Shown here piece after piece: positions 22,439 to 33,202 of a DNA stretch of 34,146 nt. A model generated the notes under the pieces. The model was not told where the DNA came from and did no database searches. It was given only the letters and a program-made list of their open reading frames with translations. This stretch comes from an uncultured Synechococcales cyanobacterium (GTDB taxonomy: Bacteria > Cyanobacteriota > Cyanobacteriia > Thermosynechococcales > Thermosynechococcaceae), in NCBI GenBank assembly GCA_902806435.1, contig CADCWO010000184.1, positions 1-34,146 of the forward strand. The letters are read 5' to 3'. The position numbers were made by a program, and so were the translations under genes. Within the stretch, counting starts at the first letter, position 1. Every line of letters starts with the position of its first letter.

Positions 22439-23161
22439 GTGTCTGGCCCAACAACCTATCCCGGAGAAATTTTTACTGACACCAGCGATTTTGACGCTGG
22501 TATCCGATTATTGTTGCCCCACTACGACGCAATGTTAGACGCTGTTGCTAACTGTTTGCCGGCAACGGCTACTCAGGTTTTGGAGCTTGGTTGCGGTACG
22601 GGCGAACTGAGCTTGAGAGTATTACGCCAGTGTCCTTCAGCCCGATTGACTGCCGTAGATTATTCGCCTCGGATGTTAAGTTATGCCCAAGCCAAGATTG
22701 AGGCAGCAGGTTTCAACAGAGTAAGTTGGATTGAAGCGGATTTTGGTGACTGGGCTGAAGGTGGGTTAGAGGCTCTACCGATCAATAGTTTTGATGCTTG
22801 TGTTTCTTCATTGGCAATCCATCACCTGAGAGATCCTCTGAAGCAAAGCTTATTCCGGCAAATTCACCGCAACCTGAAGCCGGGAGGATGTTTTTGGAAC
22901 GCCGACCCTACCCCACCAGAATCCCAGGTTCTAGCCAGGCTTTATCAAATAGTGAGGGAAGCATGGACAGCCCAGCAGGGAACAGCCCTAGCGGCTGTGA
23001 AGGCAAAAACAGGCCACGGAAAGCCAACTCACGGTCACTCTAGCCATGACCACCTGGCAACTTTAAGCGCCCACTTAACTATGCTGGAAGACGCCGGGTT
23101 CCATAACTTGGATGTGCCCTGGAAGTACTACGGTCTAGCTGTATTTGGCGGGTTTGCCTGA
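22439..23161 (+). CDS. Class I SAM-dependent methyltransferase with His-rich insertion
   Basis: This 240-residue protein is a Rossmann-fold methyltransferase. Motif I is VLELGCGTGELSLR (residues 47-60), followed by LTAVDYSPRMLSYAQAKIE with the ribose-binding aspartate, then SWIEADFGDW, NSFDACVSSLAIHHL and NLKPGGCFWNADP. The start codon appears to be GTG at 22439, with no strong ribosome binding site. Near residues 190-205 a histidine-rich stretch (TGHGKPTHGHSSHDH) interrupts the C-terminal half; this could bind metal or be a substrate-gate loop, and I do not recall it in related enzymes. There is no signal peptide. The substrate is unknown. It converges on the peroxiredoxin gene across a long perfect hairpin. 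Confidence 0.82.
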   Translation: MSGPTTYPGEIFTDTSDFDAGIRLLLPHYDAMLDAVANCLPATATQVLELGCGTGELSLRVLRQCPSARLTAVDYSPRMLSYAQAKIEAAGFNRVSWIEADFGDWAEGGLEALPINSFDACVSSLAIHHLRDPLKQSLFRQIHRNLKPGGCFWNADPTPPESQVLARLYQIVREAWTAQQGTALAAVKAKTGHGKPTHGHSSHDHLATLSAHLTMLEDAGFHNLDVPWKYYGLAVFGGFA

Positions 23162-23197
23162 TAGTTGAAATACTCAAGGTTCTCTACGAGAAGTTGA

Positions 23198-23253
23198 AGT
23201 TGAACGGGTAGAGGGATGGAAGGCATATCTTCCATCCCTCTACCCGTTCAACT
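23198..23253. repeat. Perfect 25-bp inverted repeat between convergent genes
   Basis: The left arm 23198-23222 is exactly complementary to the right arm 23229-23253, around a 6-base loop (GCATAT). It begins AGTTGAACGGG and ends CCCGTTCAACT. No T-run follows on either strand. The sequence CTGATAGTTGAA at about 23159-23170, over the methyltransferase stop, is complementary to the outer edge of the right arm and can compete for it. The position between convergent stops suggests a bidirectional terminator or mRNA 3'-end stabiliser; a small mobile repeat is the alternative. Confidence 0.8.
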
Positions 23254-23271
23254 ATCAGCGTCAGAGACAGA

Positions 23272-23910
23272 CTATTTGTTTGGCTGGGGGGTCATCCGTA
23301 GGTAGGGTTTGACCACTTCATACCCCTTGGGAAACTTTTGCTCTAACTCTTGCGGATCTTTGATTGAGGGAATAATCACACAGTCCTCACCATCTTGCCA
23401 GTTAGCGGGAGTAGCAACACTGTAGTTATCTGTTAGTTGCAGTGAATCGAGTACCCGCAGTAACTCATCAAAGTTGCGACCTGTGCTGGCCGGATAGGTT
23501 AGCGTGAGTCTCAGTTTTTTGTTAGGGTCAATGATAAATACCGAGCGCACCGTCAACGTATTGTTGGCGTTAGGATGGATCATGTCGTACATATCAGAAA
23601 CCTTACGATCTGGGTCTGCCAGAATCGGGTAGTTCAGGGCTACGTTTTGAGTTTCCTCAATATCTTTGACCCAACCTAAGTGAGACTCGACATCATCAAC
23701 GCTGAGAGCCAATGCTTTCGCATTTCGCTTCTCAAATTCTGGCTTCAAGCGGGCAACCTCACCAAGTTCTGTGGTGCAAACTGGGGTGAAGTCGCTAGGG
23801 TGGGAAAACAGCACAACCCAGCTATTTCCAGCCCACTCATGAAAGTTGATGTCGCCACTAGTAGAGGCTTGAGTGAAATTAGGGACAGTATCCCCTAGGC
23901 GCAAAGCCAT
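23272..23910 (-). CDS. 1-Cys peroxiredoxin (Prx6 type)
   Basis: This 212-residue thiol peroxidase reduces hydrogen peroxide and alkyl hydroperoxides in the cytosol. The peroxidatic cysteine is C45 in SHPSDFTPVCTTELG. The catalytic threonine (T42) precedes it, and an arginine of the active site lies in the NTLTVRSVFIIDPNKKLRL segment. The C-terminal arm PANWQDGEDCVIIPS and FPKGYEVVKPYLRMTPQP is typical of the Prx6 subfamily and distinguishes it from 2-Cys AhpC/TSA members. The second cysteine (ED-C-VI) is at the position common in this group and is not a classic resolving cysteine. An AGGAG ribosome binding site is 7 bases before the ATG. It is monocistronic. Confidence 0.95.
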   Translation of the reverse strand: MALRLGDTVPNFTQASTSGDINFHEWAGNSWVVLFSHPSDFTPVCTTELGEVARLKPEFEKRNAKALALSVDDVESHLGWVKDIEETQNVALNYPILADPDRKVSDMYDMIHPNANNTLTVRSVFIIDPNKKLRLTLTYPASTGRNFDELLRVLDSLQLTDNYSVATPANWQDGEDCVIIPSIKDPQELEQKFPKGYEVVKPYLRMTPQPNK

Positions 23911-33130: not shown

Positions 33131-33202
33131 CTGGGGCGGAAGGATTCGAACCTCCGAATGGCGGGACCAAAACCCGCTGCCTTACCACTTGGCGACGCCC
33201 CA
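33131..33202 (-). tRNA. tRNA-Gln (anticodon UUG)
   Basis: The minus-strand sequence folds into a complete 72-base cloverleaf. The acceptor stem starts with U1 pairing A72, typical of glutamine tRNAs, followed by the GGGGCG/CGCCCC stem. The anticodon stem GCGGG/CCCGC encloses the loop TTTTGGT, giving anticodon UUG. The T arm GGAGG-TTCGAAT-CCTTC is normal. CCA is not encoded. It reads CAA and probably CAG codons. Confidence 0.95.

Follow-up and report, generated by a model that had tools for sequence, protein, structure and literature searches.

Hairpins at the ends of bacterial transcripts have been described in several forms. In Synechococcus elongatus, according to the relevant parts of PMC13289151, a hairpin followed by a U-tract is found on just 22% of the transcription units, 75 of the 163 defined ends without a U-tract are structured, and the strength of termination climbs with the U content and with the number of consecutive U residues. 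I-shaped terminators (the WebGeSTer class, as in PMC7406221) consist of a stable stem without a U-tract; the portion of PMC7406221 relied upon here also reports that, in Synechococcus PCC 7002, U-less hairpins show shorter half-lives than U-tract hairpins, which argues against such structures being strong stabilisers. In E. coli, a preprint (PMC13082048) describes, in the sections used here, that a hairpin placed between converging polymerases fixes their stopping place and holds the collided complex together, whose lifetime rises from roughly 6 min to roughly 150 min. The hairpin reported here bears on how cyanobacteria terminate transcription in the absence of Rho.

The window (the whole stretch of 34,146 nucleotides that was analysed, from a genome with cyanobacterial relatives) harbors one hairpin that can be compared with each of these systems (Table 1). 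With the I-shaped terminators it shares a stable stem soon after a stop codon and the absence of a U-tract, even though its stem measures 25 bp, against a maximum of 12 bp in the analysis of PMC7406221, and the likeness is one of structure. Like the bidirectional terminators of E. coli (PMC13082048), it is a palindromic stem located between convergent genes and usable by both transcripts; the collision mechanism was demonstrated in E. coli, whereas the likeness here is one of structure and place. Canonical terminators following cyanobacterial 1-Cys peroxiredoxin genes occupy the same place and are U-rich in 9 of 43 relatives, but their sequences are unrelated to that of the window hairpin, which lacks their U-rich end. 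Finally, REP elements are likewise extragenic palindromes without a U-tract that could protect 3' ends; the window hairpin differs from them in being single-copy, and hence it is not a repeat.

Table 1. Position of the hairpin, of its third arm and of the flanking genes in the window.
Feature	Position	Strand	Remarks
SAM-dependent methyltransferase gene (Methyltransf_25)	22439..23161	+	ends 36 nt before the hairpin
Third arm	23158..23169	+	12/12 complementary to 23247-23258; includes the methyltransferase stop codon
35-nt stretch	23170..23204	.	from the third arm to the part of the left arm still paired in the alternative fold
Left arm of the hairpin (25 bp, no mismatch)	23198..23222	.	complementarity; single copy in the genome
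Hairpin loop	23223..23228	.	6 nt, GCATAT on the + strand
Right arm of the 25-bp hairpin	23229..23253	.	complementarity
Partner of the third arm	23247..23258	+	the right arm's outer 7 bases and the next 5
1-Cys peroxiredoxin gene (AhpC-TSA + 1-cysPrx_C)	23272..23910	-	ends 18 nt from the hairpin

The mismatch-free 25-base arms and the 6-base loop described by an earlier, sequence-only reading of this DNA were recovered exactly, with 25 of 25 positions complementary, and no other perfect inverted repeat of at least 14 nt was found in the window at spacings of up to 150 nt. When the surrounding 121 nt were folded, z-scores of -9.7 (+ strand) and -8.6 (- strand) were obtained, and none of 200 shuffles equalled the native score on either strand. 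Since the hairpin is near-palindromic, the same 25-bp RNA stem would be present in either transcript. It is also the longest among the host hairpins scanned: a full scan of 904 kb of the host genome disclosed no stem longer than 25 bp, and neither did a scan of 1.17 Mb limited to intergenic spaces of 30-600 bp. At gathering scores, the window yields a single Rfam match, a tRNA gene (33131-33202, - strand), and the hairpin itself yields none.

The gap between the convergent methyltransferase (+) and peroxiredoxin (-) genes, of about 110 bp, contains the hairpin, which folds on both strands, as is expected of a bidirectional 3'-end hairpin. As in a canonical terminator, a stable stem (25 bp) lies shortly after the gene, 36 nt from the methyltransferase stop and 18 nt from the peroxiredoxin stop; a canonical 3' U-tract is missing, however, and a scan for consensus terminators does not list the structure. 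The absence of a T-run was likewise correctly noted in the earlier reading: 3' of the hairpin, the most U-rich stretch of 8 nt includes 3 U in the methyltransferase orientation and 4 U in the peroxiredoxin orientation, and no run of U exceeds 2. A stable post-gene hairpin without a U-tract corresponds to what is called an I-shaped (U-less) terminator. Given that no U-tract is present, an efficient classical release of RNA polymerase is unlikely. As an end signal, which it most likely is, the hairpin is of an unexceptional type, and the missing U run is what chiefly sets it apart; taken by itself, the sequence is in other respects unremarkable.

One possibility raised from the sequence had been a small non-autonomous repeat element; for such an element, mobile or of a REP- or MITE-like nature, several dispersed copies would be expected. 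The search of the arms in the host genome and its relatives disclosed no such copies: the 121-bp query matches itself alone in its own genome. There, the 18-nt inner arm does not recur when up to 2 mismatches are allowed, and its 4 matches with 3 mismatches are comparable with what the reversed pattern gave as a control. The hairpin sequence has no match in 57 other genomes (relatives search), in 387 other genomes (class search), or in phages or plasmids, and the exact 23-mer of the arm has none in viral contigs. The inverted-repeat shape alone would speak for an element of this kind; with one genomic site and no match in the other genomes, viral contigs, phages and plasmids searched, this candidate was rejected on copy number and must be regarded as extremely improbable.

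The third segment reported to be complementary to the outer edge of the right arm does exist, with 12 of 12 pairs and a left edge at 23158, one base further left than had been proposed, and it does overlap the methyltransferase stop, the TGA at 23159-23161 falling within it. A complementarity of 12 was reached in none of 1000 flank shuffles (the longest was 11). Of the alternative fold that this segment was said to permit, the competition is confirmed for the outer 7 of the 25 pairs, which are replaced with a gain of 5, but not for the inner 18, which are retained and common to both folds. With the pairs enforced, the main stem and the third-arm fold reach -64.7 and -62.3 kcal/mol, respectively, on the + strand (a gap of 2.4) and -58.5 and -57.7 kcal/mol on the - strand (a gap of 0.8); the pairing probabilities of the third arm rise to as much as 0.70 on the peroxiredoxin strand. 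When 11 long hairpins of the host genome were checked for a third arm, only that of the window had 0 of 200 shuffles reaching it; for one other, A+T-rich, the third arm was reached by 2 of 200 shuffles. These probabilities and the complementarity, not matched by any flank shuffle, are what might favor an RNA switch based on competition between the left arm and the third arm for pairing with the right one. Such a role is very unlikely, though, and was rejected: the inner 18 pairs are unaffected by the choice of fold, so that no terminator/antiterminator switch would result, the two folds differ by the gaps given above, and the hairpin lies 3' of both stop codons, so that no downstream gene would be switched. 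The third arm is instead likely a trace of the history of the hairpin, i.e., of an arm once 30 bp long that was split by the 35-nt stretch, likely through an insertion or duplication. This stretch contains a small stem of its own (23180-23184/23188-23192), and its core (23172-23193) is single-copy in the genome.

The regions downstream of relatives of the two flanking genes were then compared. The peroxiredoxin gene matched 53 other genomes, 44 of which were examined and one dropped because of a short downstream sequence, leaving 43 relatives, whose genus labels were entered by hand. A hairpin of at least 11 bp starting no more than 60 nt from the stop is present in 13 of the 43 relatives, representing 13 of 31 genera, versus 0/43 upstream stretches and 1/860 shuffles taken as controls. 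The sequences of these 13 hairpins are mutually different, and 9 of them have U-rich ends while 4 do not. The other 30 relatives, including all 11 examined genomes of the genus g5, are below the hairpin threshold, and the nearest relative examined by peroxiredoxin identity (G003, 87%) has no hairpin of at least 9 bp in the 300 nt after the gene, where weak 8-bp hairpins alone occur, beyond 100 nt. On the methyltransferase side, a comparable hairpin follows the gene in 1 of 48 relatives, with 2 of 48 in its own upstream control. The comparison between 13/43 and 1/48 thus makes the peroxiredoxin gene the better owner of this position, at which its relatives often have an ordinary terminator, and the assignment of the hairpin to the methyltransferase gene was rejected. 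Parallels exist in two relatives: in G051 (L174), 103 nt past the peroxiredoxin stop, a mismatch-free stem of 26 bp, longer than that of the window, is closed by a loop of 3 nt, and in G048 two convergent genes flank a 25-bp stem that is likewise perfect.

The distribution of long hairpins in the host genome was analysed by taking as genes all the ORFs of at least 100 codons, without annotation; spaces of 30 bp or less, those larger than 600 bp and those beside ORFs cut by the end of a stretch were left out of the space-based counts. In 1.17 Mb, a quarter of the host genome, stems of at least 14 bp occur in 7 of 90 convergent versus 2 of 497 other spaces (1/370 tandem and 1/127 divergent; p = 4.5e-5). 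With a stem of at least 13 bp and at most 1 mismatch, 25 hairpins were counted in 904 kb, three Markov shuffles giving 0, 1 and 1, and the density per 100 kb (stem of at least 13 bp, all spaces) is 30.7 in convergent spaces, 6.1 in tandem ones, 7.8 in divergent ones and 1.0 inside ORFs. If all spaces are kept, 7 of the stems of at least 14 bp in the 904 kb lie in convergent spaces, 4 in tandem and 1 in divergent ones, with 4 more inside called ORFs and 1 at the end of a stretch. Three further hairpins of 18-20 bp with at most 1 mismatch are located between convergent genes of the same genome (L189 11781-11825, L194 12796-12846 and L195 7971-8016), the first two being likewise U-poor.

As for the U content, in the pooled sample of cyanobacteria U-rich stems of at least 14 bp fall in 10 of 211 convergent versus 2 of 1007 other spaces, a clear enrichment; the convergent enrichment of U-poor stems is not significant, either at 14 bp or more (4/211 vs 8/1007, p = 0.14) or at 12 bp or more (8/211 vs 19/1007, p = 0.08), and a U-poor class specific to convergent genes was rejected on these pooled tests. 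In the host genome alone, U-poor stems are found in at least 3 of 90 convergent versus 1 of 497 other spaces, in a subset that was picked after the data had been seen. The same script applied to Bacilli as a control gave, for stems of at least 14 bp, 2 U-rich and 0 U-poor in 21 convergent spaces, 0 U-rich and 3 U-poor in 56 tandem ones, and 0 and 0 in 24 divergent ones.

On the whole, it appears rather probable that the structure is a bidirectional 3'-end hairpin common to the two convergent genes, with a poor U-tract, serving as an end barrier and/or a weak terminator, and that it is above all the positional successor of the terminator hairpin that follows the stop of many cyanobacterial 1-Cys peroxiredoxin genes. 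The analysis establishes its structure, its uniqueness, its place and the over-representation of such hairpins at such places; transcription across it, the position of the RNA ends and the mode of action are inferred. The bidirectional terminator or mRNA stabiliser suggested by the sequence-only reading would fit the position, the convergent-space enrichment and the peroxiredoxin relatives, while the repeat element offered beside it is contradicted. Most likely, polymerases coming from each side would pause, stop diffusely or collide head-on in the space of about 110 bp or just beyond it; the stem would restrain the backtracking of the polymerase and also bar the way to 3'-to-5' exonucleases, leaving stable mRNA ends at its base. 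No Rho above the curated cut-off was found in the genome (best 25.1 bits vs 509.45), as reported for cyanobacteria in the pertinent part of PMC13289151. A symmetric, U-poor stem between convergent genes could place the collision, hold off exonucleases or terminate weakly. Against the bidirectional 3'-end hairpin stand the nearest relative G003, which is devoid of it, the 30 of 43 relatives below threshold, the U-rich ends of 9 of the 13 relatives' hairpins, the lack of a significant enrichment of pooled U-poor long hairpins between convergent genes and, as regards strong stabilisation, the shorter half-lives that go with U-less hairpins in Synechococcus PCC 7002.

The same very stable stem, the same lack of Rho above the cut-off and the same location between convergent genes would also suit a U-tract-independent (I-shaped) intrinsic terminator, in which the stem alone releases the polymerase on both strands. 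This is possible, albeit rather unlikely, considering that termination strength grows with U content in S. elongatus (in the data of PMC13289151 referred to above) and that the enrichment of long U-poor hairpins at convergent ends does not reach significance. Another explanation would see in the hairpin a mutational by-product, that is, a recent perfect inverted copy generated by replication template switching and as yet functionless. One template-switching event can yield a perfect stem, as stated in the part of PMC8794818 drawn upon here, the arms are perfect and single-copy, the third arm resembles the remnant of the split 30-bp arm, and the structure is missing from G003; indeed, the perfect arms are probably young, e.g., derived from template switching during replication, and the absence from the nearest relative is compatible with a young age. 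However, the long hairpins of the host cluster between convergent genes and seldom fall inside ORFs, a bias that would not be expected from mutation alone without counter-selection elsewhere and that argues against a mere by-product, which is thus distinctly unlikely.

Returning to the bidirectional 3'-end hairpin, a broader suggestion, which we hold as quite doubtful, is that long, near-perfect hairpins lacking a U-tract and situated between convergent genes serve Rho-less cyanobacteria as a functional class of end signals, which would position the head-on collisions of polymerases and thereby terminate both transcripts with neither Rho nor a U-tract. A symmetric, U-poor convergent stem represents a clean test object in this respect, as it can be asked whether it stops a lone polymerase, colliding ones only, or exonucleases only.

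Some minor observations concern the methyltransferase gene (22439-23161). No peroxiredoxin gene was found in the examined flanks of 49 methyltransferase loci, which thus gave no further instance of this gene pair. Most of the same-family genomes searched contain no close match to it (the best same-family match being 39%, in G021), while matches of 47-63% are found in many other cyanobacteria, suggesting that the gene has been patchily kept or acquired. In G003, whose assembly is 74% complete, just the C-terminal part of the methyltransferase is found (L196, contig C107, about 1133-1285; 61%, residues 194-239), and, with its internal TAG, it looks like a decayed copy.
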